Below, in pieces: positions 4,075-26,313 of a stretch of 27,752 nt of DNA. A program made the translations under genes and the position numbers. Where the stretch lies: the NCBI GenBank assembly GCA_029834535.1, contig JAQMWT010000618.1:1-27752 (forward strand), given 5' to 3'. This stretch comes from Chrysophaeum taylorii (Eukaryota; Sar; Pelagophyceae; Pelagomonadales; Pelagomonadaceae). A model generated the notes under the pieces. That model searched no databases. It was not told where the DNA came from and was given only the letters and a program-made list of their open reading frames with translations. Each line of letters begins with the position of its first letter. Within the stretch, counting starts at the first letter, position 1.

Positions 4075-4157
4075 CGCCTGACGAAGAAATTTCCGTTGGC
4101 TCTTCGCTGAACTAACGACCTAACGGATTTTTCGACTCTTCAACCGCCACTTTTCTA

Positions 4158-4395
4158 GGTCGCCCCCCCAATTTCGATGCATGGTTTTAAGGTCGCCCCC
4201 CAAAAACGTCCATTTTTTTTTAAGTCGCCCCCCCAAAATCACCACTTTTTTTACGGTCGCCCCCCCAAAAAACAACATGTTTCTAAGGTCGCCCCCCCAA
4301 AATCACCAATATTTTAACGGTCGCCCCCCAAAAAACACTATGCTTTTAAGGTCGCCCAATACATATAGAATCCGACGTTGTCGCCCCCCTAACAG
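4158..4395. repeat. Right terminal array: eight copies of a ~32-bp module
   Basis: The core GGTCGCCCCCC recurs with starts at about 4158, 4191, 4223, 4255, 4287, 4319, 4350 and 4379, so the period is 29-33 bp. The spacers alternate between AAAAAACA(C/A)-type and AAAATCACCA-type, each followed by a T-rich stretch. The two innermost-matching modules (4319-4388) are the inverted counterpart of the left end. The array is longer on this side, so the modules have been tandemly amplified within the transposon end. Confidence 0.8.
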
Positions 4396-5070: not shown

Positions 5071-5956
5071 AGCTGACCCACCATGACATTACCGCACATA
5101 GCATCCCGCATCGATCTTTTAATGGTGTCTACTACAAGAAGGCCATGTACTACGTTACCACCATCGACAATATGACCTACGCGTTCCAGCCGCGGCACCA
5201 GTATAAGGTCGAGCGCCTGATCGTCGAGCACAGGGAGTTTATCCTCGCGATGCTCGAAGCGCATTTCAACGTGGGTGCCACCAGTTCGGTCGTGCGCTTC
5301 GACGACAACGTGAGCGGAACCGTGCTCCCGGCATTTCGGGAGCTCTTCGAGCTCGTCGACTCGACGATCCCGTGTGGCTCGGCAGCTGAATTCGCCGCCG
5401 CGGTCGCCTGGCTCATCCGCAACAAGGAACTGCCGGAGCTGCGTGCTTGTGTCATGGGCGAGGAGTCACGTGTCGAGCGTGGTCCGGCTCGCTGGTCGCG
5501 CGAGGGCCGATTAGTCTTTCAGCTGGCGACGGCGCTCCCAGCTTCGGCGCGAGCTTGGTGGTACTCGGCGGAGGCGTTGACCGAAGAATTCTAACGCCGC
5601 GAGGCCGACGGCGCGACCGCCGACGACGTGGGTCTGCTATTCTCGCCTAGCTCTTCGGCGATACGGTCTGGCTGGAATATGCGATGCAGTCGCGCCGACA
5701 GCACTGCCTTCATCTGGGTCCCATCGCCGAGCGTCTTCTCCCCCCACCGCGTTCGCCATCAGCTCGACGGCGGCGTGTCGCGACCGGCGAACCACGCACC
5801 CGAGAGCGGGTGCCCATTCCCTCGACCCCTCGTCAAGGCGTGGCGAAATATGACCAACGCTCAAGCCCCTGCCCCTGCTCCGACATCGCCTGCACCGACG
5901 TTGCCATTGCCAACCCAGTGCGCCCTGGCAGAAGTTTCCAGCCTAAGAGGTTTTAG
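5071..5956 (+). pseudogene. Unknown, possibly gag-like, degenerate coding sequence
   Basis: A plus-strand frame is open from just after a TAG at about 5068 to 5594. It reads ELTHHDITAHSIPHRSFNG, then MYYVTTIDNMTYAFQP (Met at 5145), and ends ATALPASARAWWYSAEAL. The block 'A..LP..AR.WW' followed by an aromatic/acidic stretch resembles the capsid region of LTR-retrotransposon gag proteins. In another frame downstream, FGDTVWLEYAMQSRRQH could continue the same domain. That frame runs to a TAG at 5956. Composition is GC-rich, as in the neighbouring MULE and the 13.9-kb gene and unlike the copia remnant. No zinc knuckle or protease is visible. The element 1 insertion at 5990 lies just downstream. 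The gag reading is an inference from weak similarity; an unrelated host pseudogene is equally possible. Confidence 0.3.
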
Positions 5957-5989
5957 GCAGGTCCGGGCGCGGCTGTCATCGAAGACTGG

Positions 5990-6324
5990 TGTAGTGATTT
6001 TCTCAGATACCCGCCCCTCCTGGCCGGACCGGGGGCCTCGACAACCCTTTCTCCCTACCCGAACCACGGGTGAAACCACCACACGCCCGATCTCAGCGTA
6101 ATACCTCACGCCATCACGAAATCGAACAATCAAAAGATGGTAATATCAAGAAGACAGCAAGAAAGCAATACAAATGCCCGGTACATTGGGTCCAATGGAA
6201 GCGCAGGTGAAGGTGTCAAGATGACACCCCCCCATAAATGCAAGGTCAATACCAGGGCAACAACCAGGGTAAGTCAGGTGGCAGGCAGGCAAGTGGGGGA
6301 AATGGGCATTACCATACTGCCACA
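5990..6324 (-). repeat. 3' LTR of element 1
   Basis: 335 bp, beginning TGTAGTGATTTTCTCAG and ending ACCATACTGCCACA on the plus strand. It is about 98% identical to 12215-12544. It contains an extra CCATA near the right end that the partner LTR lacks. It ends in TGT/ACA, as expected for integrase processing. Confidence 0.93.
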
Positions 6325-6339
6325 GGAGCCCCCTACTTG
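6325..6339 (-). promoter_or_regulatory. Polypurine tract of element 1
   Basis: On the minus strand CAAGTAGGGGGCTCC directly precedes the 3' LTR start TGTGGCAG. This is the place and composition of the plus-strand primer for reverse transcription. Confidence 0.65.
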
Positions 6340-6359
6340 AGGTGAAGTCGTCCTCGACT

Positions 6360-6600
6360 TCAAGGGTGACGAAGGTCACGCTCACGAATGGTACGATAAG
6401 CTCGTTCAGCTACATCAGCAGGAACTTTGTTGCTATGGAGACCGAAGTTAGTGACGAGGACATCGATTTCATCCGGGCGAAAATCAGTCACACAGGGTTC
6501 ACAGCCCTCCATGTTGGGTCGTAGGCATGTTGAAGCTACCTCCGTCAGGATCTTTGTCTTCTGGTCTTAAGCGTCGTTCTTCAGCAGAAGCGGTCGCAGA
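6360..6600 (-). pseudogene. Element 1 conserved C-terminal pol domain, frameshifted
   Basis: Two frames on the minus strand match the end of element 2's pol. The first reads LRPEDKDPDGGSF (element 2: LKPEYKDVDGHSF). After a frame change it reads CVTDFRPDEIDVLVTNFGL, then VPADVAERAYRTIRERD and a stop at 6362-6360 (element 2: CVTDFAPHEIDVLIPKFTL ... VPEPVVERVYKKIRSRD). The conservation across two element families shows this is a genuine domain at the pol C-terminus, downstream of integrase in element 2. Its function is unknown to me; it is not an obvious chromodomain. Confidence 0.7.
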
Positions 6601-7413: not shown

Positions 7414-9240
7414 GTACGTTCTGTCGCGTACTAACTGCTACCATAGCTGCGGTGGGTCCGCTGTCCGTCAGCATAGGCATCGTCAGCGAAGAGAAGGTGA
7501 AACAAGCGGTGCCAGGGACATCGGTGGGGATTTCTTGGAAAATCAAAAAAGCTTCATTGATCGGCTCCCCGTCTTCATCTTTCTCGATCAATTTGTCGAT
7601 AGGGTTGCGCGACAGACAACCCGGAATACGCATACCAGGGGAGCTTCCAGGTTTGTATCCGAGCTCCCGGTCGAACGCAGCAAGCCGCATAGCCCATCGT
7701 GCTAACTGTCCAGACGTATGATTCGAATCCCGTAGAAACGTTAAATTACGATGATCCGTCTCTAACTTTGTCTGATGACCTTCGATATAAAATCGGAAAT
7801 TTTCGAGAGCAGGGAGTACTGCGAGGAGTTCCAAGCGCCGAGGATCATACTTCCTCATCGACTTAGGCACGGTTCGACTCCAGTACTCGATAGCTCTCTC
7901 TTCGATTCTTTCTCTTTCATCGTCGTCAACGACTGGTACTTTTTGAAATAGGTAAGCACCCAACCCATGCGCGGAAGCATCAGTTCGAATGTAAAAAGGC
8001 AACGAGTAATCAGGATGGTAGACGCCCTTCGACGTGACAATAGCCTCGATGATGGTATCCCAAGTTTCCTGACACTCTTTCGTCCACTTGAATTTCACGT
8101 CCGGCAACGTCAGTTGTCTTAATGGCTCTGCAACTTTCGCAAAATTCCTCACATAACGCCGGCAAAAGCTCCCCATTCCAAGGAAAGATCGCACTTGCTT
8201 CTTAGGGTCAGCATCCGACAAAGTGCCACTAATTGGCATGTGTCTGATGGCTTCTAAAGATCTTGGTGATGGAAGAAGTCCGTTCGGGGTAGATAAATGA
8301 CCCAAAAACTCAATGACTTCTTGCATAAAATGAATCTTCTTGATCTTGGCACTGTACCCCTTCAAGGCGAGATGGGGAATAACTTGCACAAGGCACTGCA
8401 AGTGATTCTTTGTATCTGCGTGACCGGCGAGAATATCGTCGATATATGCCACGAGATCACGATATAGCCATTGCGATAAGTCAGTGTTCAACTGCTTGCA
8501 AAACAAACTTCCGGCTGGTTTGACTCCCAAGGGTAGACGCATGTGGCTGTACGCTCCCAGAGGACTAGTGAAGGTGACCACATCTTGTGCATCCAGCGAC
8601 AATCGCAAATTGTGATAGCCCCAACGAATATCCAAACTGGAACGACAGAACTTGTCAATGAGAAACATCAACGCGTCAGCCATGCTCACACTCGGCCAGC
8701 TATCATCCTTGAGCAATGCATTGAGGCGCCGTAGGTCAACAGCTGCTCTGTAAGCATTGGAAGTGCCAGGCTCAGCACCTTTCTTAGGCAACATCAAAAT
8801 AGGGAAACCCCAGCACCTTTCTTAGGCAACATCAAAAGAGGGAAACCCCATGGAGAATTCGCGGGACGAATAACTCCGTCTCGGGTCCATGCTTCAATCT
8901 GCATCCGCAAACATTCAGTCTTTTCTTTCGATAACCGATATGGCGAGAGTTTGACGGGAGTCGGGTTCTCTTCTTTGAACCGGAGCGTCACTTCAGGTGA
9001 ATCAACAGGTCTCATCACATCATCGAAAAATGCCCACGAATACGAGACTAAATGCTTCATCATCAGCTTCTCGTCATCATCTAAGGCAGGATGCTCTGTA
9101 ATACCCAATTCAGTCATCACCTCTTCGACCTGCGCGACGGTCGGAGGGATGACCTGCATGCTCTCCTGATCCGCTAAATGAGGAGGCATCACCGGTGAAG
9201 GTTGACCATGTTCGTCGTGAGGCGCGTCCGCCCACGGAAC
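7385..9240 (-). pseudogene. Element 1 reverse transcriptase and RNase H
   Basis: After a Pro-rich linker the RT begins at about 8960 with LSPYRLSKEKTE and DGVIRPANSPWGFPLLMLPKK. This is followed by AAVDLRRLN, SSLDIRWGYHNLRL, MRLPLGVKPAGSLFCKQ and the catalytic YIDD (8435-8446). RNase H follows: RTDASAHGLGAYLF, RRLELLAVL and ETDHRNLTFL give the D, E and D catalytic positions. Then comes RWAMRLAAFDRELGYKPG. This is a canonical Ty3/gypsy order. A 38-bp tandem duplication (8773-8848) shifts the frame within the 'LLMLPKKGA' block, so the enzyme cannot be made from one frame. Upstream it continues in the same frame from the methyltransferase-like domain; downstream it ends near the 360-bp insertion. 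RT copies the element RNA into DNA in cytoplasmic particles. RNase H degrades the RNA strand. Confidence 0.93.
8773..8848. repeat. 38-bp tandem duplication inside RT of element 1
   Basis: CAGCACCTTTCTTAGGCAAC and the following 18 bases occur at 8773-8810 and again at 8811-8848 with one mismatch (AAAATAGGG versus AAAAGAGGG). Thirty-eight is not a multiple of three, so the RT frame is broken here. Confidence 0.93.
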
Positions 9241-9599: not shown

Positions 9600-10480
9600 T
9601 TTCAAACGAATTGTGCACTGCTAGCGCAATCCGCGTCATAGTCGCGGGTGGCACCATACTGCCAAGCATCTTCATAGCTACTGTCTCGGAAACTGTCGCA
9701 CCCCATTGCCACGTAGCAGGGACGGTCATAATTTCCTGGTGCATCTGCAACGTGAGTGGACGGGTGTTCGAGAAATGAGGTCCTAGGTGGAGCTTATTGC
9801 GCGTCACCGTGAAGGCAGGGCCGATAGCCGGGCGCGTAGATGAGAAACTGTTCACTATAATGAGCGGGTGACCACCTGTAAATCCCAACGCTGGCCCGAA
9901 ACGGTCCCGTAAATTCGGTGGTACACGCGATAATAAAGGCAGTTCCAAGCGAGCATTGCAAGCAAGTAGGCGCGTGCGCGAGCACAGCAATTCTGGTGTG
10001 ATACTATAAAAATCGACAATGCGCGGCACATGACATTGGTGATGCACAAAAGGGATCACTGATGGTTCCTGCTCGAGCGTCCATGTCCAATTACAGAAGG
10101 TGCGTTGCGGAAATGACGCAGGACCCAAGAAGTAATAGTAGCGCCCTTGCGTGCTTCCCTGTAGTGCAAATTGGCTGTCGACCCATAGATACACGGCGGA
10201 CTTGCGTGAAAATAAGAATGCCTCCAAAAATCTGAATGTAAATACGACAACACCAAGTCGTATGTACGACGATGAGATTCCCCCAACTCGTGCAAAACAT
10301 AGGGAATCTTCGGAAAATTGAGCTCTAAGGTGGCTCTGGCTTGGGGACAAGCATCCAAAGCCAGGACAATGCGAAATGAACTGCCATATAGCTCATTGCA
10401 TCGCCGGATACCCAACGTTGATCCTCCAGCGCCAGCAAAGTAGACAACGACAAAGGTGTAAGTGACGGGTATCCAAACCA
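9600..10480 (-). pseudogene. Element 1 C5-cytosine DNA methyltransferase-like domain, frameshifted
   Basis: The domain starts at IPVTYTFVVVYFAGAGGSTLG (motif I, cofactor loop, ~10425-10460). It continues with ALDACPQARATLELNFPKIP (motif II/III area) and ASPPCIYG (motif IV, catalytic Cys codon at 10191-10193). A frame change near 10095-10110 leads to WTWTLEQEPSVIP (motif VI position, Glu kept, ENV replaced by EQE). SRTRLLACN follows (motif VIII-like). The end reads LTLQMHQEIMTVPATWQWGA and MLGSMVPPATM, which match motifs IX and X. Length is about 290 residues, short for the family, with a very small target-recognition segment. It sits between a truncated gag and RT, and in frame 2 it is fused directly to RT. 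By family knowledge such enzymes transfer a methyl group from S-adenosylmethionine to cytosine C5. Whether this version is active is unknown. Confidence 0.82.
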
Positions 10481-11618: not shown

Positions 11619-11773
11619 GTTCGCGATTTGCCCGGATAATATGTTTGTTCCGGATGTTCACAACTCACTTGTTGTATTCTTTTCGTCAGACGACAATTGC
11701 CGGCAGCCGTCTGACTACTGCGCGCTGTACCGGTGCCTGGTCTTACGGAAGCATTTGCCTTGCGCGTGAAGAC

Positions 11774-12019
11774 TATGGACGGCCTTCCCGGTGTAGTCGC
11801 TCGCCATCAGGGAGGTGGTCTGCCTCGCGCGAGCTAGTTAGGTCTTATAACAATGCCTTACGATATGACGATATGCAAAAGTATGCAAAATGAGTATGGA
11901 CGGCCTTCCCGGTGTAGTCGCTCGCCGTCAGGGAGGTGGTCTGCCTCGCGCGAGCTAGTTAGGTCTTATAACAATGCCTTACGATATGACGATCGATATG
12001 CAAAAGTATGCAAAATGAG
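11774..12019. repeat. 121/125-bp tandem duplication in the element 1 leader
   Basis: TATGGACGGCCTTCCCGGTG starts unit 1 at 11774 and unit 2 at 11895. Both run to GCAAAAGTATGCAAAATGAG. They differ by one substitution (CCATCAGG/CCGTCAGG) and an extra CGAT in unit 2, so the duplication is young. It lies in the untranslated leader between the primer-binding site and the gag start. Confidence 0.93.
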
Positions 12020-12167: not shown

Positions 12168-12196
12168 ATCGATAGTCCGGGAGTTGGACTATCGAT
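12168..12196. other. Perfect 11-bp hairpin touching the primer-binding site
   Basis: ATCGATAGTCC (12168-12178), a 7-base loop GGGAGTT, and GGACTATCGAT (12186-12196) form a perfect stem-loop. Its edge overlaps the inner end of the primer-binding site of element 1. Confidence 0.85.
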
Positions 12197-12213
12197 TCCC
12201 GTTTCTGAGACCA
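12196..12213 (-). promoter_or_regulatory. tRNA primer-binding site of element 1
   Basis: One base inside the 5' LTR, the minus strand reads TGGTCTCAGAAACGGGAA. This begins with the TGG expected opposite a tRNA CCA end. Read as tRNA it gives ..TTCCCGT-TTCTGAG-A-CCA, with T-stem, acceptor stem and discriminator of the right lengths. I cannot identify the tRNA. Confidence 0.65.
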
Positions 12214-12214
12214 C

Positions 12215-12544
12215 TGTAGTGGTTTTCTCAGATACCCGCCCCTCCTGGCCGGACCGGGGGCCACAACAACCCTTTCTCCCTACCCGAACCACGGGTGAAG
12301 CCACCACACGCCCGATCTCAGCGTAATACCTCACGCCATCACGAAATCGAACAATCAAAAGAGGGTAATATCAAGAAGACAGCAAGAAAGCAATACAAAT
12401 GCCCGGTACATTGGGTCCCATGGAAGCGCAGGTGAAGGTGTCAAGATGACACCCCCCCATAAATGCAAGGTCAATACCAGGGCAACAATCAGGGTAAGTC
12501 AGGTGGCAGGCAGGCAAGTGGGGGAAATGGGCATTACTGCCACA
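12215..12544 (-). repeat. 5' LTR of element 1
   Basis: 330 bp, beginning TGTAGTGGTTTTCTCAG and ending GGGCATTACTGCCACA on the plus strand, paired with 5990-6324. As the 5' LTR it should contain the element's promoter. I see no certain TATA box. Confidence 0.93.
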
Positions 12545-13540: not shown

Positions 13541-13889
13541 CCCCTTGGTGCAACGTCAGCTGTCACAAAACAATTCTTGACTACTAGTACACTAGGTTCG
13601 AACTAGGATACATCTACACAGATCCCAGGTAAAGGCCTGGTGTAACTTGTCTGTGCCATCCATTCCTTCGGGGCGGGGGGGGGGGCGCGTGGATTCGAGA
13701 GCGACCTCGCGACGACCGTCGTAGCAGCAGCGGTAATTTCCTCGAGGGTGGTGACCGACTGGTACCCGGTCCCACATTGTTGGTGGACGATCGCCGGTGG
13801 ACGATCGCCGCCGTCCCTCTCGCAGTACAACAAGGACAAGCGAAAGAAACGGAAGAATCGGAATTCGGACCATCCCATCCAGCGGCAAG

Positions 13890-14563
13890 ATGGCCGACTC
13901 GAAAGACTTCCACGACGTCCAGCGCCAGTTCTTGCCGGAGAAAACCATGGATCACATCATGATGTGTCACATGATGGCACAGATGCAGAGTATGATGAAC
14001 GAGATAAACGCACGATTTCCGCCCCAACCAGTCTCAACTGTCTCGGCGGGCACCACGCCACACGTCGCGACTACGGCCGCCGATTCCTTCAAACCACCAT
14101 CCATGCCGTTGAGCGACCACATGGCGTTGGCGTCCAGCTCGCCGCGAGGCGTCGCCGAACCTTTTGTCAGCGGCGCCGCTGTAACGCCATCGTCGCACGA
14201 CATGTCGCTCCAATTTTTGCCGTTCGGGTGTGGAGGGGTCCCCACCACCAAGGCGGCTAGCGCTAGCATGCTCATGCCTTCGGCGGCCGCCGCGGCGGCT
14301 ACCGCGGCCGCCTACGGCGCGTCGTGGCCCAGCGCTCTCGTCGGGCCGGTGAGCGGCCAAGACACAGTCTCCGCGAGCCAGCAGCAGCAGCCACCGGCGC
14401 AGAGCTTCGGACCGCCGACGCACAGCCAGTACGCGAGCCAGGCGTCCTACCAGCAACAATCTCAACAACAGCACCAGGACCAGCTTGCGATGCAGGGTGG
14501 CGAGGTGGTCGACGGGATGAGGCACCAGCTGCCAGTGACGTACCACTCGCATCACGAACGACC

Positions 14564-14595
<32 letters not shown>

Positions 14596-16739
14596 GGCAG
14601 CAGCAGCAGCAGCAGCAGCAGATTCTGGCGCACGCGACCTATGGTTCGCCAAGAGCACAGGGGGGCGGGGTTTTCCTCCAGCAGCTTCAGATGATGTATC
14701 GTGACCAGCCGCCCGCGTACTCGCCGAAACCACAAACGCAGCGTGACAACAACAACAACAATGACGATGATGATGCGAGCGCGGCGGCGGCGGCGGTCAA
14801 AGGCGAGTCGCGACCAACAGCGGCCGATACCTCGTCGACTCTTGATCCAACGGCTTATAGCCCGCTTGCGCTGCAGGCGTTTGTGCGGACTCCGCGCGAC
14901 GACAAGCATTTTGAGCGCTACAAGGCGATCGTCGATGCGACTATCTCCAAAATGCGAACGGAGAACGTCCAGAAGGCCGTCTTCAAGACGCCCGAGATCT
15001 TCGAGGATATGCTCCAGCTGTGTCTGCTTTCAGACGCCGAGGTGCGAGCTCTGCACAAGACGGACCCCGCGCGCTACACCAAGGCGCGTAACGTGCGCCG
15101 TGTATACTTCGCCAAGGCGGGGGCCGAGATCGCCAAGGACGAAGCCAGTTTGGCGCTCGTCCGGCCGCGTCTCTACCGCAAGGTCGAGGGTTACAAGCGG
15201 CCTATGGCCAAGCGTACTAAGCTCCACGACGACACTCGCCTGGCGCCGGCGCCCGCGACCAAGCATGCCGACGTCACGCACGAGGGCTTGCCTATGTATG
15301 ACATTTACGACGCGTTCGACGTCATCAAGGCGGCCCATCTCCGCGCCGGCCACATGAAGCGGTGTACGACTTCCAACGTCGCCGCAAGCGCCGCCGGCAT
15401 CCCCAACTGGATTATCAAAGCCTACGTCAAAACCTGCCGCGTCTGCGGCGACAAAAAAGCCGCGCGCAATGGAAAGGACGCCGAGGACCCAACGCCTTTG
15501 GCATCTGCGGCGGCTTCGAGCCTGCCCGGAGACGACGACGACGTGGAAGACGACGACGCAGCTGCTGTCCCTACCAACGAAAAAACTGCCGCCGCGAAAC
15601 CTGTCGGCGGCGCTACCTCGATGTTCGCCGTCGTCGTGGAGGAGAACGGTGATTCCGCAGTCTCTGAGGCTCCGCCGCCACTGTCGTCGCCCTCGTCACG
15701 CGCGATACCGATTGGGCCAGACGCGGTAGCCTCGCTGCAACGGCAAAGACACGAGGACCGAGAGGCTTCTGAGCAAGCTTTCGAGACGGAGAACGACGTC
15801 GCGACTTACGCTGCCCCGTGTGAAGCGACAGCGGAGACCACCACCACCGTGACGCCTGGAAACCGCTTGGACCAAGAGGGATTCGATATGCAGTACGACA
15901 TCGACGTCTTTGATGCGACGTCGACGGCGGCAGTCGTCGTCGTTTTCGAGCGTGCGACGGGCGCGCCGCTCGTGTTAGCGGCGGCCTCGAACCGCGACGA
16001 CGACGTCGGTCGCGCTGTGTGTGCAGGTCTGGCCGTCTACCCACAACCGCTTGTGCTTGCCACCCGGCGGGACGCGAGCTTCAACTCTTTGCTCGCGGAC
16101 AACATCCGCCACTGCTTGCGCTACTCGCCTCCGGCCCCAATCGTTGTCAAGTGGCACACGCGTCCGAGCTGCGCCGCACGCATCGAGGCCGAGGTTCGCG
16201 ACCTCTGCGCCTCAGAGCCGCGCGATTGGTCCAAGCTCTTACCATGGCTCCATCGAAGGCACCTCGAGGCGGCCGCCTCCAGCGCGTCGTGCCAGGGACA
16301 CGCCGACGACGCGATGCCGCGACCCCGTACCACGCGAAGGCTGCTGGCGACAGCCTCATCGTCTGCTTTGGTAGACCGCATCCGCCGACGACATTGGTCG
16401 CAGGTCGTCGAGGCCGTAGACCGTGACGGCCGCCTAGATGCCGCTAAGCTCATCGCCGGCGTCGAGGCCGACGTGCGCGACGCGCGCCTTCTCGCCGAGG
16501 TGTTTGCGCTCGACGATCCGCGGCTCCTGACGAGGCTGCCTGACCTCTTCCCCGACGACGCCGGTCGCGTGACCGGCGCGAGCCAGCGAAGATGGGCCAC
16601 GAAGAAGCGGAATCACGACGTCGCGGCTGCATCTCGCCGCGATGATGAAGAGAATGACGATGAGGATGAGGACGAGGATGTCCTCGTCGTCGCCGCCGAC
16701 GACGACGACGAGGTCGCCGAGACCGAGGCTATCTGCTAA
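13890..16739 (+). CDS. 949-aa polyQ protein with HHCC zinc motif and integrase-like D-D-E arrangement
   Basis: An intact intron-free gene. The start at 13890 (CAAGATGG, Kozak-like) is preferred to the in-frame ATG at 13797, whose 31 extra residues are low-complexity basic. N-terminus: a Met-rich helix (MDHIMMCHMMAQMQSMM), Ala- and Gln-rich stretches, and a 19-codon Q tract with one Arg at residues 226-244. The middle is helical and basic (DDKHFERYKAIVDATISKMR ... RNVRRVYFAKAGAEIAKDE). Then AAHLRAGHMKRC (His483, His488) and TCRVCGDKK (Cys516, Cys519) form an HHCC zinc motif like that of retroviral and gypsy integrases. After a low-complexity linker, MQYDIDVFD (Asp670/672), LATRRDASFNSLL (Asp728) and RIEAEVRDL (Glu766) stand at integrase-like spacing, followed by DWSKLLPWLHRRH. 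The C-terminus is strongly acidic. Among broken elements, a 949-codon open frame suggests selection. Proposed: a domesticated integrase-like, DNA-binding or regulatory protein. The zinc motif is firm; the catalytic fold is inference. Confidence 0.75.
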
Positions 16740-17923: not shown

Positions 17924-18206
17924 CGAGTTTTAGTTAGCGGAGACGCTCACTGGGTTTCAGGGCCAAGACCATCAAGTTTCGCGGGGTCTCCAAGAGCCGA
18001 TCGATAACCCTTAGTCGACTTTGGGGGGGGGCGGGGGGTGCTTCGTCAGAACACGTGGGATGACGATCTTCAGTAACTGTTGCGGGAATCTTTATGGCCC
18101 ATTTTGGACGCAAACAATACCCCACAAACCCACCCACATCCTTCATGCTCCCCACACACACCCCCCTCTTAGCAGTCGACATTTAAAGACAAACAAGTGC
18201 AGGCCA

Positions 18207-18616
18207 GTAAGTCCACGTAGCCCCAACTCTAACCCTAGTAAGTTCACCTGGTCAGTAAGTTCACTTAGTCCCAACAAGCGCAGGCCAGTAAGTTCACCTA
18301 GTCCCAAGCTCTAACCCCAGTAAGTTCACCTGGTCCCAGTAAGTACACCTGGCCAGTAAGTTCACCTAGTCCAAATTTCTGACCTCAGTAAGTTCGGCGT
18401 AAACCCACTCGTGCTCACACCACTCCTTCGAGCTCGTCGCTGTCGCCTCCGCCAATCTAAGTTGCTTCGATCCGCACACGCCGCTAATCTTTGAGTTTAC
18501 TCTAAAGCCCCCAGTAAGTTCACCTGGTCTCAGTAAGTTCACCTGGTCACTATATTCACCTAGTCCCAATCTCAAACCCCAGTAAGTTCACCTGGTCCCA
18601 GTAAGTTCACCTACAG
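18207..18616. repeat. Interrupted minisatellite of GTAAGTTCACCT(A/G)GTCC units
   Basis: About 13 copies of the core GTAAGTTCACCTGGTCC, with T/A/G variants, in two blocks (18207-18405 and 18508-18616). A non-repetitive segment of about 100 bp separates them. Spacing between copies varies from about 18 to 32 bp because linkers such as CCAAGCTCTAACCCCA are included or left out. No coding frame passes through it intact. Each unit carries a GTAAGT, the consensus 5' splice-donor sequence. Confidence 0.85.
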
Positions 18617-19973: not shown

Positions 19974-20134
19974 CTCGCACAAGACCGCGCGCAGTGGCGG
20001 TCCGCCATCAACGCCTTTTCATCCCTCGCCTCTACCCCAACTGTGTGATTTTGCTCTGTGATCCTGGACCAGCTCCTACCGGCCCAGCCTGGCTCCCATG
20101 CCCGGGAGAGGTCCGAAATAAGTTAGTGAGTTAG
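19974..20134 (+). mobile_element. 161-bp 5'-truncated non-LTR insertion
   Basis: It is flanked by an 11-bp direct repeat with one mismatch: TTGTCATGGGG (19963-19973) and TTGTCAAGGGG (20135-20145). It ends on the plus strand in GGGAGAGGTCCGAAATAAGTTAGTGAGTTAG. The segment CCTGGCTCCCATGCCCGGGA is nearly the same as the 3' end of the insertion at 7054-7413. The element 2 pol frame continues on both sides (ADLGPLD before, KVSYYKPT after). The copy is shorter than the other, consistent with 5' truncation. Confidence 0.75.
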
Positions 20135-20871
20135 TTGTCAAGGGGACCAAGATCAGCATAGAAATGCAGAGCGACTCGATCATTCACAAAATCATAGGGT
20201 TCATAAACATCAGCGACGTAAATCTTCTTTCGCCAATCGGACCGTTTGTTATCCGGAATCCGAAAGAAAACGAACTTCCCATGCTTGTAATCATCCCGAA
20301 AAGTCTCCATGGGCTTGGGCACAGCTCGATCGACCACTGGAGAAACCATCACAGGGGTGATCTGACTAACATGAACACAACGGCGTTCGGGAGGAGAATC
20401 AAGAGACTCAATCCTGTAAGTGGCCGGGGACAAGCGTTCCAAAATAACAAATGGACCGCGCCATACCGGTCGAAGCTTGTTCTGAAGAAAAGGGATGTAG
20501 AGCAGAACATGTGAACCTTCTTCATACTCCACATCGACATGGTCCGTTTTGTAGGCGAGACGTTGTTTACGAAGAGCCTTCTCACGAGCTTCGTTCACCG
20601 TAGCGGTATAGAATTTCAGCCTCTCGCGAGTCTCTGCCACAACATCGGAGCGAGTTTTCGGCAAGCGGCGGACATCAAGATCCATGATCGTGTAATCGGT
20701 TGGCAATAAAGGCTGCCGGTTAAGACGAAGCATGAAAGGTGGAATCTGAGTTCCGGGGATAAATTTACGATTATAACAGAAAGCAATGTACTCCGCGAAT
20801 TCGGGCCATTCCGTGATCTTGCGGTTTTGAAGGCACGCACGAAGGAAAGCCTTGGTAAAGCGGTTGACCCT

Positions 20872-20885
20872 TTCAGCATTCAGCA
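20872..20885. repeat. 7-bp tandem duplication at the integrase catalytic Glu
   Basis: TTCAGCA is present twice in tandem. On the minus strand this doubles TGCTGAA next to the codons for Ala-Glu of the integrase third catalytic position. It causes a premature TGA and a frame change. Confidence 0.85.
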
Positions 20886-21599
20886 CGATTAGCCTGAGCA
20901 TGATACGGAATCGTGGTACTATACCGAACATTGAAAAGATGACAAAACTCTTCCATCAACTTGTTGACGAACTCTTTCCCATTGTCGGTACGAATCTTCT
21001 GAGGTAGATAACATTTGAGTAATATATTCGCGACAAAAGACTCGAGGATTGACTCAGCAGTCTTATGGTGTAGTACGTCAAGAATCAAGAAATGAGAAAA
21101 TGGATCAAAAAAAACGATGAGATATGTCTCGGGACCAGCACTGGGCAAAGGTCCAAACAAGTCCATACAAAGTACGACACAATCACCATAATACACTGGT
21201 TGCTGAAGCAGACCTGCTCTCTTTGGTTCAGGCGTACGAGCTTTCTTGCACACTATGCAACCAGCAATGTAAGCACCCACCTCATTAGACATATGGTGCC
21301 ACCAAAAACGTTCAAGTATCGACTGCACTGTACTTTGACGACCTATATGACCACCATAGAGAGGTGTGTCATGGTACAATCGGATGATGCGCGTCCGTAA
21401 AGTTCGGGGTGCGACTATCATCGGGTGCAAGTCGGGTGCGGCACGGTAGAGAACTCCTTTCACCACTTGATAGCGATAATTGGCTCCGTACCGACGAAGA
21501 GAATGGCCCTGAGCCATGCGATAACGAATGTCATCGCAAGTAGCACCAGTGATCTGCTCTTTGGCTATCTCTTCCAAAGTCAAATTATCCGGAATCTTG

Positions 21600-23841
21600 T
21601 CGATGTACTCTTGGTAATCATCGGCATCACAGAAAATACTAGGCTGGGTCTGCAGTCGTTGCTTCTGACGTTGTTTCGTAGCATGAGACGTGACCAATTG
21701 CATCGGATCATCGAGGTCTTCTTCCTCTTCCTCCACAGGCAACTCAGTCGTAACAAACGACAGAATGACATGGCACCCCGGTAAAGGTACTCTATCATCA
21801 ACAGAACGAGGGAGTTCTTGGCACACTAGATACGCGTGGTCCAAGGGTTCACCAAACTCGTCCGTCTCGATGACATGATCTATAGGATTGCGAGAGAGAC
21901 AGTCAGGGATGCTCATTCCCGGCGACTTCCCTGGCTTGTAACCCAATTCAGGATCAAAATTGGCGAGCCGCATCGCCCATCGAGCCAACTGCCCAGACGA
22001 GTGCTTCGCCTTTCGTAAAAACGTCAGGTTGCGATGATCTGTTTCAAGGATCGTCTTGTGACCTTCGATATAAGAGCGGAAATGCTCAAGAGAAAGAATA
22101 ACTGCCAGTAGCTCTAGCCGGCGAGGCTCATAGTTCCGCATCTCTTTCGGCACAGCTCGGCTCCAATACTCAATTACTCGTTCCTCTCGTGTCACCTTGC
22201 CGGTTTCGTCCTTGATTTCCACAAGCTGAAAAAGATACGCACCCAGACCATCCTTGGAAGCATCCGAGCGGATCTGAAAAGGAAGATCGTAGTCAGGATG
22301 ATAAACTCCACGAGAATCCACCAAAGCTTCGATGATCGTGTCCCATGCCTTTTGGCACTCAGGCGTCCACTCAAACTTAACGCCTTCAAGACACAATCGC
22401 CTAAGCGGCTCCACAATCTTCGAATAATTCTTCACATATCGGCGGCAATAGTTTCTCATGCCAATGAAAGATCGAATCTGGGTCTTCGGGGACGTATTAG
22501 GCAACGTACCGGGAATCGGCATCTGCTGCCGCGCTTCTAACGTCTTGGGATTCAGCTTCAAGCCTCCCGTAGTCGAAATATGTCCCAAAAACTCGATTTC
22601 GTCCTCGAGGAGGTGGAACTTCGAAGTTCGTCCACTATATCCTCGCTGCGCTAAATGGCACAACACTTCAATCAAAACTCTAAATGTCGGTGGAGTTCAT
22701 CCGATCCCATCATAATATCGTCGACAAACGCGACCAAGTCCTTATACATCCATGTGGACAAATCGCTAGCCATCTGCCTACAAAAGAGAGCTCCTGCTGC
22801 TTTTACCCCTAGAGGCAAGCGCAAGAAACTATGGGCTCCAAGTGGACTAACCATCGTAACGGCGTCCTGAGCGGCGACGTCCAAACGTAGGTTATGATAA
22901 CCCCATCGAATATCAATGCACGTCCGCCAACGGCGCATGGCAAGAAAAGTCAAAGCATCATCTTGACGAATATTCGGCCAACTGTCATTGACCAGCTGAT
23001 CATTGAGCTGACGCAAGTCAACTGCAGCACGAAAAGCATTCGATGTCCCGGCCTCTGCTCCCTTCTTAGGCAGCATCAGTACAGGGAATCCCCACGGAGA
23101 GTTCGCCGGTCGGATGACTCCGTCGCGACACCACTCAGTGATCTGCTTTCTGCGACACTCGAGCTTTGCTGGCGTCAACCTATAAGGCGTCATCTTGATC
23201 GGTCGTGGGTTTGCGTCTCTAAAGCGTAGAGAAACCGGTGGCGAGTCCACGGGTCTCATAATCGGATCAAAGAAAGCCCACGCGTATTGCACGCAATGGC
23301 TCAACATCATCTTCGCATCATCATCCAGATGCGGGTTGTCGGGAATTCCTAGATCTCGAACAACCTTCTCAACTTCTTCCTTCGTCGGAATTACGACTTT
23401 CATCGCATCATTGTCCTTGACGTGCTCGGGAATCTGCGGTAACGGTACACCGTCCGCATCGCGCGGCGCATCCTTCCATGGCACATCGAACTTTTCTTCG
23501 TATTTGAACCTCACCTCAGGGTGGCTCTTATTGATCTTTTCACCTTTGACGCGCACATTCGGCTCGCTCCTTACTTTCGGCTCCTGTTCAGGTTTAGGAT
23601 CCGGCGGAACGTCCACTTTTGATTGTCGGGGGGGCCGAGCAGAAAAAGCATGAGCCGTCCCCGGCGCATCAGTTGGAAGCGGAACTTCTGGCGGTTCCCA
23701 TTTAGTGGGATCCTGGAGATCATCCTTTGACACCCACTTAACGACACGAGTACGCGTATTTAACACCGGAATCTCTACGTGACGAGAGGTGGTGTCGGAG
23801 ATTCGTAAATACTGCTCAAAGGATCGATCTGTCGGGCTCAA
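21600..23841 (-). pseudogene. Element 2 reverse transcriptase and RNase H
   Basis: The frame from 23841 begins with a linker (VEIPVLNTRTRVVKWVSKDD) and a proline/charged stretch. RT follows: KMTPYRLTPAKLE, DGVIRPANSPWGFPVLMLPK, AAVDLRQLN, CIDIRWGYHNLRLD, FLRLPLGVKAAGALFCRQ and the catalytic FVDD (22719-22730). Near 22671 one T is missing from a T run, which brings a TGA. The next frame continues IEVLCHLAQRGYSGR, SFIGMRNYCRRYVKNYSK and the RNase H domain with RSDASKDGLGAYLF, RRLELLAVIL and ETDHRNLTFL. Region by region it aligns with element 1. It is fused or nearly fused to the methyltransferase upstream and to integrase downstream, as one polyprotein. Except for the frameshift, all catalytic residues are present, so it was lost recently. 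Confidence 0.93.
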
Positions 23842-24800
23842 CGCGGTCGGCAGACTTCACCACTTTGGCGGAAACCTCTTGTCACGGAGTTGTGCAGATC
23901 GACTGCTAAAATCGCAAGAGTATCTGGAGGGACGACAGATGCTAAATGTTTGAACGAATCTGTCTTAGACAAGCTAGCCCAATCATGATCCACCGGCATC
24001 GTGAGCAACTCGGCCGTCATTTTGAGAGTCAAAGGCTGAGTGTCCGAGCGATGCGGTCCCAAACGAAGAGGAACTCGCGTAACGGTGTAAGCCGTATCTG
24101 TTGCTTCTCGGGACGAGCCAAGATTATTCAGCTGGAGAAGGTGGCTTTCATGAGCATAACCTAAAGCTGCAGCAAATTTTTGTTGCATGTTCACACATGT
24201 CTTCGGAGCCTCTTGCAAGTGCAGTGGGTGACTGGAAACCAACAATCGCACACGAGAGCTCATCAGAGTAGATATGATATCATGAAAATTGACGACGTAC
24301 ACGTAAGGGTGTAAACGCGCTATATACGAAATAATAGACGCCTCCTGTTCAATCAGCCACATCATGAAGCCAGCCATTTTGCACAGCTTCATCGTCCAAC
24401 TAGTGGCCGTAACACCCTTGCCAACATCTCTGGATGTCAAGTTGCAGAGTACTGAATGAACGCAGGGTGGTGACGCTATACACATCGACGATGACCATTC
24501 CGCTTCAGGCAAATAAGCCTTGATCAATCGGAGGGTCGAGTCATATCGTCCGCAGAGCGTTTGCTGAACCACAGGTATCTTCGGAAAATTCTTCTGATGA
24601 ACCTTGTTGGCAGCTGTTGAAGAGTCAAGAGCAAGGACGACTCGAAACGACGTCCCGCACAACTCGTTCGCTCGTTGCATTCCTAAAGTACTTCCTCCGG
24701 CGCCGCTAAAGAGCATCACAACCTTGCGATACGTGATCGGCACCCAGTGGACCTTTTCAAACCTTCGGCGAGTCTCGCCTTCTGTAGCTTCTCGGCATTT
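23838..24800 (-). pseudogene. Element 2 C5-cytosine DNA methyltransferase-like domain, open over its full length
   Basis: The domain itself is unbroken within the open frame 25160-23838; only the polyprotein is broken on either side. Motifs in order: WVPITYRKVVMLFSGAGGST (motif I), VVLALDSSTAANKVHQKNFP (II/III area), IASPPCVHS (motif IV; Cys codon at 24462-24464), MMWLIEQEASII (motif VI position; Glu kept, Asn replaced), SSRVRLLVSS (VIII-like), LTLKMTAELLTMPVDHDWAS (IX) and ASVVPPDTLAILAVDL (X; GN replaced by AS). Motif I to X spans about 275 residues, so the target-recognition part is minimal. Motif IV with two prolines resembles the SPPC seen in Dnmt2-type enzymes. At 23838-23841 the stop of this frame overlaps the start of the RT frame. 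In element 1 the two are one frame, so a one-base lesion or a -1 frameshift lies here. The likely role is methylation of element DNA; activity is unproven. Confidence 0.85.
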
Positions 24801-26313
24801 CTTTTCCTCCTCGTCAGTTCGTCGGTCTAAATCGTCGTTACTGAGCGATTCTTGACGAGAATTCCTCTTCTTATCGGCAGAAGAAGACGCCTTCTGCACA
24901 GAGCTCAAAAGCATCGGTTCATCGCCTTGAGTAAGGTGGCTTGCGACCGAAACAGTGAATGATAGGTTAGCCTTGTTAGATTCGGCTTCACCATCCTTCG
25001 TTAAATCGTCGACCGTCACAGCATTCAGCTCGTCATCAAAACGAACAATATCGCCCAAAGCAAGGACTTCACCTTGGGTGATCACGGTCGGCACATCCTG
25101 GGTATAGGATATCGCCACTCGAGCTGCGAACTTATCATGATCCTCAGGAGAAGAACACATTCCATCGACTACCCCGAGTTGCTCGTACCCAGAGACGTAG
25201 CAACGAAAACTGGCCCGGTTTCCGTGGGCTCTGAAAGAGTGACTGGCACGCAGTAGGTGCGTCCAGGCTCGACCTTCATCGTGCGCGCAGCATAGGCTAT
25301 CACTTCATAGGCATCGCTGTTCGAACATTGAGAAGGCGTAACTGGAATGACTCCCCAAGTCGTCGAAGCTCCCGCTTGTTTCGGCGGTGGACGCTGGAGG
25401 TCTTCAATCTTGCACAAGCGAGCGTAGACTCGGTTCTCAACTGCGCTCAGGCACTTTTGCATCGCATGGTGCTGTTGCCCATAAACCTGAACTACCACGG
25501 GATTGCGCTCGTCATAAGTTGATCTGAACGTCAAAATCGGAGAATCGACTCGTCGATCCTGCACCTTTAAATTCTTGCGCCCAAGCGACTTGTGTGCGGA
25601 GAAACGCAATGCGATTTCGCGGGTAGTCCACTATGGCTCAACACCCGAATATCGCGCGCTCCCAGCAAAAATAGATGATTAGTATCGGCCACAATAGCAA
25701 CAACTGGAACGGCCACGTCGTCAAGCGCAATCCGCAATGCACCCATTGTGGATAGTCGTCTTGTTCAATCCTGACCCGTACAGGTGGCGCTCGACTGGAA
25801 GATCGCCCCGGTCAAGATGATGCATCGGCCAGTTTTTCGACCATCCCGACAAATATAGGAGACATCAGCATTCCATCCACGCCTAAAGTCGTTGCAAACT
25901 TCGGCCCGTCGTCGTCTATAAATATGACCAACTATAAACGTAAGTGTACCAGGGTCCAAACAACCGATGGTGATGAGGGTCTTGCTCGATCTTTCCCCAT
26001 CGCTCGGCGAAAGTGCAGTGTGATGACATCGAATCTCCGGTTTCGCATCGCCCGGCATCTGCATCGTCACCGCTGCCATATCTGGCGTTCCACATCTCGC
26101 CTCTGAATCTATATTGGCGCTCGCCGCTTCGGCTGCTTCCTCATTCCCCAGTTTCGCTGACAACAAATTCTGACACTTCTCAATCGGAGGCACATATACC
26201 TCTTTATCTCTTCTGGCAATCGTCGTTTCTCGTCCATCAAATCGGACATTCCCGTCAACTTCTCCCATCGGCGCCGCTGTGGTCTGCTCTGCGCGACAAA
26301 ACTGTATCGGCAT
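24800..26313 (-). pseudogene. Element 2 aspartic protease remnant and protease-RT linker
   Basis: LITIGCLDPGTLTFIVGHIY (about 25922-25980) looks like the start of a retroviral-type protease in which the active-site D-T/S-G has become D-P-G (codons at 25951-25956). About 100 residues later, after one TGA, VPVVAIVADTNHLFLLGARD matches the conserved end of such proteases (the 'LLG.D' strand). Next comes 25609-25169 (MKVEPGRTYCVPVTLSEPTE), which after a frame change near 25165 continues YEQLGVVDGMCSSPEDHD and ITQGEVLALGDIV. This resembles the beta-rich linker found between protease and RT in many Ty3/gypsy elements. It is followed by a charged low-complexity stretch leading to the methyltransferase. 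The part from about 26000 to 26313 is coding-like but not assignable. Protease cleaves the polyprotein in particles; this copy is inactive. Confidence 0.55.

Follow-up and report, generated by a model that had tools for sequence, protein, structure and literature searches.

A divergent C5-cytosine methyltransferase-type domain in the Gag-Pol of Ty3/gypsy retrotransposons of Chrysophaeum taylorii

Introduction

Methylation of cytosines normally serves to keep transposons in check; an element that carries and retains the methylating enzyme itself turns this relation around. Such a case is suggested by contig JAQMWT010000618.1 of Chrysophaeum taylorii (assembly GCA_029834535.1), analyzed here over its whole length of 27,752 nucleotides and called the window. 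A Ty3/gypsy retrotransposon found in it, element 2, holds an open frame with the look of a C5-cytosine DNA methyltransferase (DNMT). Is this domain a genuine methyltransferase, is it a regular part of the element, and what may it do there? The DNMT domain sits in the Gag-Pol of a multi-copy Ty3/gypsy family, and is kept by purifying selection together with its catalytic residues. A different DNMT resides in the matching slot of Ty1/copia elements in the same genome.

The methyltransferase-type domain of element 2

The domain lies in an open frame of 488 aa (23838-25304, minus strand). According to the original prediction, the motifs of cytosine-C5 methyltransferases follow one another in their usual order between the protease/linker and the reverse transcriptase (RT) of element 2; all of them were located in the translation of this frame, which has protease and spacer upstream and RT downstream (Table 1). 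Motif I is taken here as the S-adenosylmethionine-binding loop, and the Cys of motif IV presumably is the catalytic one. The domain departs from the canonical letters in motif VI, which reads EQE and not ENV, and in motif IV, which reads PPCV and not PPCQ. A pattern made of the ordered motifs found no match when the domain was shuffled 200,000 times, and one among the window frames of at least 150 aa; the test is partly circular, because the pattern was composed after the sequence had been seen.

The comparison with the Pfam profile PF00145 (DNA_methylase), proposed as a check together with the prediction, gave 23.8 bits for the whole frame (E 3.5e-5) and 25.7 bits for the excised domain (E 9.4e-6), above the curated cut-off of 22 bits; the alignment of the domain covers profile positions 2-48 only. 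Higher scores were obtained with intact copies of the lineage of element 1, the second gypsy element of the window (locus L060, 38.6 bits, E 1.1e-9; locus L061, 36.4 bits). Both copies match the profile in two stretches, the best of which corresponds to the C-terminal profile end (257-321 and 260-321 of 324, respectively). The whole 3,005-aa frame of locus L039 scores 18.4 bits, under the cut-off. The cut-off of the NCBIfam family dcm (TIGR00675; 100.65) was not reached by any of four gypsy domains (17.9-22.7; window domain 17.9), or by the copia domain described below (35.6 bits).

Four sequences were matched in the PDB by the family profile, at just E 0.28-0.56, and all are C5-methyltransferases. 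In hhalign comparisons, motifs I-VIII of the gypsy DNMT family aligned with the host Dnmt2 (E 0.0008, probability 24%), and motifs I-IV with a bacterial C5-methyltransferase (E 1.8e-7). Of two predicted structures of the gypsy domain, one was useless (predicted local distance difference test, pLDDT, 31) and one weak (pLDDT 43). Several RNA methyltransferases rank above DNA C5-methyltransferases when the weak model is compared with known structures, a ranking that means little at such pLDDT. Judged by its sequence, the feature is almost certainly a divergent C5-cytosine methyltransferase-type domain.

Copies and subfamilies in the genome

Relatives were monitored in the 70.8-Mb assembly, made up of 697 contigs, one of which is the window. 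At least 92 matches were found with the window frame (from 88 scored of 1252 candidates), and at least 152 with a piece of element 1 (from 150 scored of 679 candidates); the two lists overlap, A-type copies, about 40% identical, being part of the second. Two contigs of near-equal length, C10 and C297, have the same matches at nearly the same places. Haplotypes may thus inflate the copy counts, and both haplotypes of at least that region seem to be assembled.

The copies fall into at least three subfamilies, and three were examined: A, to which element 2 belongs, B (loci L039-L041), and the element-1 lineage. The DNMT of subfamily B is about 80% identical to that of subfamily A, the DNMT of the element-1 lineage 42%. 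Between L039 and L060 the DNMT is 41% and the RT 65% identical, between L060 and L061 85% and 90%. In the examined copies of all three subfamilies the DNMT occupies a common slot, after protease and spacer and before RT. L039 features, within the fetched piece, an uninterrupted frame running from Gag through protease (PR), DNMT, RT and RNase H (RH) to integrase (INT), with Pfam domains in the order DNA_methylase, RVT_1, RT_RNaseH, Integrase_H2C2 and rve. The PR-RT-RH-INT order of Ty3/gypsy elements is found in one frame in L039, and in pieces in element 2. L060 has a 2,070-aa frame with DNA_methylase (30.9 bits) and RVT_1.

Conservation of single residues was followed in 34 rows, picked by similarity to the window frame and at least 85% coverage of the domain, the two window elements being included regardless; L009 was removed as a duplicate, and L011 and L012 are two haplotypes. 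PPC, LEQE, SRTR and VPP are kept in nine complete element-1-type rows, which correspond to eight places (L055 is the place of L061), 14 loci having been examined. Median ratios of nonsynonymous to synonymous substitution (dN/dS) between subfamilies A and B are 0.073 for the DNMT and 0.025 for the RT (17 A and 3 B loci, 51 pairs), and 0.21 for the protease (72 pairs), rough figures all, since dS, at about 1.7, approaches saturation. Pairs within subfamily A gave medians of 0.22 for the DNMT (429 pairs), 0.26 for the RT (136 pairs) and 0.45 for the protease (294 pairs), values mixed with the decay of dead copies. The gypsy family thus has the DNMT in the coding frame, in many copies and under purifying selection, the marks of DNMT-bearing retrotransposons. 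For the primer of subfamily B there were 36 matching sites in the genome and none in the control; no tRNA was found in the 20 of 36 sites scanned.

Host methyltransferases and a second family in copia elements

PF00145 has at least 57 matches in the genome (from 123 scored of 474 candidates). The first, L001, is a single-copy Dnmt2-like host gene of 360 aa (E 3.9e-39 to 1g55); the second, L002, is a single-copy DNMT5-like host frame of 2,086 aa (E 5.4e-124 to 7r76, named Rad8 in the PDB and presumably the fungal DNMT5 structure). The presence of DNMT5 in pelagophytes, diatoms and haptophytes is reported in the available part of PMC9998398. Six further loci opened (L003-L008) all belong to another repeat family, of the copia type, with at least 79 matches (from 68 scored of 830 candidates).

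In L046 and L047 an upstream frame, taken as gag and lacking a Pfam match, is followed by a protease recognized by eye, the DNMT, about 330 aa, integrase and RVT_2, as in Ty1/copia elements. All three Pfam domains of L046 are in one frame: DNA_methylase at 349-475, rve at 1016-1110 (17.2 bits, under the cut-off) and RVT_2 at 1686-1933 (E 1.6e-38). Long terminal repeats (LTRs) of this family were not found within the 10-kb pieces. The copia DNMT features the motifs PCQ and ENV; Cys and Glu are kept in 8/8 rows, Arg in 7/8, and dN/dS is 0.149 (23 of 28 pairs, those with dS > 0.3). It has no PDB match at E 10. No similarity between gypsy and copia DNMTs was detected by hhalign (probability 0.1%), a remote common origin being still possible with two profiles of low diversity. 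The region of about 330 aa between DNMT and integrase (L046, about 5400-6590, plus strand) has no Pfam match at E 10; an HLDG stretch in it could be the HxD of a dioxygenase, a guess made by eye.

That the copia DNMT occupies a matching slot suggests a benefit of the activity during reverse transcription. The balance tilts slightly towards independent capture, by gypsy and copia elements, of two unrelated C5-methyltransferases into the same Pol slot behind the protease, both kept as enzymes, the gypsy enzyme being a retroelement-specific lineage also present in other organisms (see the metagenome protein P0002 below). If true, convergence on this slot would point to a general advantage of having a cytosine methyltransferase inside the reverse-transcribing particle, for example for pre-methylation of cDNA.

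Elements of the window

Table 1. Coordinates of DNMT-bearing elements and of their parts. Positions are those of the window unless a locus is named; rows are those of the 34-row set.
Feature	Position	Strand	Evidence
Element 2 (subfamily A), C5-methyltransferase-type domain, motif I to motif X complete	23856-24767	-	PF00145 25.7 bits; alignment with relatives
Motif I, FSGAGGSTLG	24681-24710	-	F and G in 34/34 rows
Motif IV, ASPPC	24462-24476	-	Cys in 34/34 rows
Motif VI, WLIEQE (Glu)	24342-24359	-	Glu in 33/34 rows; near Glu of host Dnmt2 LENV in hhalign
Motif VIII, SRVR	24246-24257	-	Both Arg in 34/34 rows
Motif IX-like block, LTLKMTAELLTMP	23994-24032	-	Alignment; counterpart in relatives matches C-terminal PF00145 profile
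Motif X-like block, LASVVPP	23925-23945	-	Pro in 32/34 rows
Element 2, protease and start of spacer	25196-25816	-	tblastn with L039 frame, 43% identity; protease motif by eye in L039
Element 2, linker and RT	22684-23880	-	82% to L039; RVT_1 29.3 bits, just under cut-off of 29.6
Element 2, RNase H and integrase, two frames	20134-22684	-	RT_RNaseH, Integrase_H2C2, rve, Integrase_p58_C; 82-83% to L039
Element 2, gag remnant, reaching contig end	27366-27736	-	tblastn with N-terminal part of L040, 42-67%
Element 1, 5' LTR (330 bp)	12215-12544	-	Against 3' LTR: 323 identical columns, 7 substitutions, 5 gap columns
Element 1, 3' LTR (335 bp)	5990-6324	-	Direct-repeat comparison with 5' LTR
Element 1, primer-binding site, 22 nt	12192-12213	-	Complementary to 3' end of tRNA-Gly(GCC) (19 nt of gene plus CCA), pairing read from sequences
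Element 1, DNMT domain, N-terminal part	10101-10475	-	46% to element 2; PF00145 profile 7-77, E 0.003
Element 1, DNMT domain, C-terminal part, other frame	9607-10083	-	39% to element 2; PF00145 profile 261-321, E 0.0042
Element 1, RT and RNase H	7427-8812	-	RVT_1 50.2 bits, RT_RNaseH 88.9 bits
Copia DNMT element	L046 3597-9455	+	DNMT between protease and integrase
Copia DNMT element	L047 701-6307	-	DNMT between protease and integrase

Element 2 is decayed: its protease, DNMT, RT, RNase H and integrase pieces occupy several frames between about 25816 and 19614, the gag is cut by the contig end, and the 5' LTR lies outside the window. Dispersed repeats of the CAGTAAGTTCACCTGG type were found at 18117-18613. 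The 3' flank of L039 contains this repeat too (74-92% in pieces), as does L066; it may be carried along by elements of subfamily B or A.

Element 1 has the structure of a Ty3/gypsy element, with direct LTRs, a target-site duplication (CCAG at both outer LTR sides) and a tRNA primer site. The genome contains 107 occurrences of the 16-nt core of this site, the control none. The gene of the primer, tRNA-Gly(GCC), has T, not C, at position 38, and a Dnmt2-like action at C38 of this primer is thus rejected. A 102-bp tandem duplication (98%; 11771-11993) is found between the 5' LTR and the first frame. Elsewhere in the window an array of GGTCGCCCCCC units, spaced by 32 bp, spans 4148-4347, and a 994-aa open frame that includes runs of glutamine (13755-16739, plus strand; CpG observed/expected 1.34) is probably a host gene.

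Possible role of the enzyme

The DNMT may have been gained before gypsy subfamilies A and B and the element-1 lineage split. Made as part of Gag-Pol and packaged with RT, it would methylate cytosines of the element's own cDNA before or during integration, and the new copy would arrive already marked. The mark could then be maintained by the host DNMT5, maintenance being the activity of the fungal enzyme. It would protect the copy against defences aimed at unmethylated DNA, or determine the state of its chromatin. The precedent is a yeast assay in which DNMTs of Symbiodinium DIRS elements (SymbioDIRS) performed de novo CG methylation (PMC5890265, available in part), from which cDNA methylation is here inferred by analogy. 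Action of the DNMT on the element's own cDNA, taken by itself, falls a little short of even chances; the explanation as a whole, a gypsy Gag-Pol domain that would methylate its own cDNA, is evenly poised.

Several observations weigh against it. The window copy of the element is broken, the DNMT is under weaker constraint than the RT, and the A-B ratios are rough for the reason given above. CpG is not depleted in any element stretch measured (observed/expected 1.01-1.30). CG-to-TG differences do not exceed CT-to-TT ones among subfamily A copies (370 pairs: CG 0.055, CT 0.068, CC 0.058, CA 0.043), nor among element-1 loci (55 pairs: CG 0.061, CT 0.062, CC 0.056, CA 0.038). The DNMTs of KnitGypsy, a Gypsy element of Klebsormidium nitens, and of SymbioLINE, a Symbiodinium LINE, gave no methylation in the yeast assay, a result that the authors, in the available part of the paper, call inconclusive (PMC5890265). 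Element-1 and copia copies do have a somewhat lower CpG observed/expected (1.01-1.07) than three host stretches (1.26, 1.34 and 1.46), and a higher TG+CA, but these stretches differ in GC content. A target outside CpG, weak deamination in the host, or an RNA substrate would also fit the missing footprint.

An RNA substrate implies an active methyltransferase working on element RNA, on the tRNA primer or on other tRNAs, and affecting packaging, priming or stability, not DNA marks. Dnmt2, the host DNMT aligning best with the gypsy domain, is a tRNA C38 methyltransferase known to act on tRNA-Gly(GCC) in other organisms, and this tRNA is the primer of element 1; the lack of a clear CpG footprint in DNA, and the RNA methyltransferases outranking DNA C5-methyltransferases for the weak model, go in the same direction, as does RNA methylation, raised by the 2018 authors for SymbioLINE (PMC5890265, available part). 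Yet the primer tRNA gene carries T at position 38, the alignment with Dnmt2 is weak (probability 24%), and a ranking obtained at pLDDT 43 means little, so that action on RNA is unlikely. Distinctly unlikely is action in trans on host DNA or competing elements, for example by reshaping silencing at insertion sites: the many copies (at least 92 matches, 88 scored of 1252 candidates) would provide dosage, and effects on the host methylome have been discussed for Symbiodinium (PMC5890265, available part), but the location in Gag-Pol beside RT favours action inside the particle.

The domain might have lost its methylating activity, and persist in the polyprotein for a structural or nucleic-acid-binding role. 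The low scores against known families, as the EQE and PPCV variants of motifs VI and IV, could be read in this way; the persistence of Cys (34/34 rows), Glu (33/34) and Arg (34/34), and of catalytic residues across about 59% amino-acid divergence to L060, makes it quite improbable. That the domain is not a methyltransferase, and resembles one by chance over motif I, is hardly credible. The window copy alone matches just 47 PF00145 positions, and the first structure model (pLDDT 31) is useless; relatives, however, are matched at the C-terminal profile end too (38.6 bits, E 1.1e-9), conserved alignment columns coincide with catalytic motifs, and purifying selection is evident. What the enzyme does for a retrotransposon can be tested naturally in this genome, where two different enzymes occupy matching slots within one host, in many copies, alongside a DNMT5-like gene of the host's own.

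Comparison with known systems

No relative outside the genome was found for the L039 region at E 0.001 among 1810 candidates; the window frame met one bacterial C5-methyltransferase at chance level (E 0.56; 7994 scored), and the element RT had no match in viral contigs. The family profile A5 retrieved one real relative among 5540, P0002, a JGI metagenome protein of 322 aa. P0002 is clearly homologous (E 1.6e-36 with the profile; 34% identity, covering 60% of the query), and its N-terminal part resembles, by eye, the protease-RT spacer; it differs in motif IV, which reads PSC, has no Pfam match, and resides on a contig of 2,598 bp. Dnmt2 (L001) is alike in the weak profile alignment over motifs I-VIII, and unlike in sequence, with 15-26% identities in a poor four-way alignment and different letters in motifs VI and IV.

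Retrotransposon DNMTs in dinoflagellates and charophytes, cited in the original prediction (de Mendoza et al. 2018), are indeed on record: the available part of PMC5890265 describes LINE and DIRS elements in Symbiodinium, and one Gypsy element, KnitGypsy-Dnmt3, in Klebsormidium nitens. SymbioDIRS-Dnmt3 and SymbioLINE-Dnmt share with the present families a DNMT in retrotransposon coding regions, many copies and purifying selection (PMC5890265, same part). Their carriers are DIRS elements, with a tyrosine recombinase, and LINEs, the present carriers integrase-type LTR elements; SymbioLINE is CG-depleted, the present elements are not (PMC5890265, same part). DNMT3 members are placed in "LTR Copia and DIRS" elements by the available part of PMC12344493, which cites the 2018 paper, where the wording is Gypsy; given this mismatch, a copia case may already have been published.

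KnitGypsy-Dnmt3 is the closest parallel in kind, with a DNMT in a Ty3/gypsy Pol, multi-copy, under purifying selection and also intronless (PMC5890265, same part). Being already a Gypsy Pol case, it makes the present elements a variant, not the first of their kind. The differences concern enzyme, repeats and host: the KnitGypsy enzyme is of the DNMT3 type, the present gypsy enzyme is assigned to the C5 type only; KnitGypsy repeats are DIRS-like according to the figure legend, those of element 1 plain direct LTRs; and the host lineages differ (PMC5890265, same part). The view that the present elements may be a further lineage agrees with the genome, which encodes a red-type rbcL (best PDB match 7yk5, E 1.7e-299) and a light-harvesting protein of the chlorophyll a/c type, whose nearest chains are VCPI and FCP, unlike a charophyte. 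Both genes indicate a stramenopile or haptophyte with photosynthesis as the host. New here are the host lineage, a very divergent enzyme, and the occurrence of DNMTs in two LTR superfamilies of one genome.

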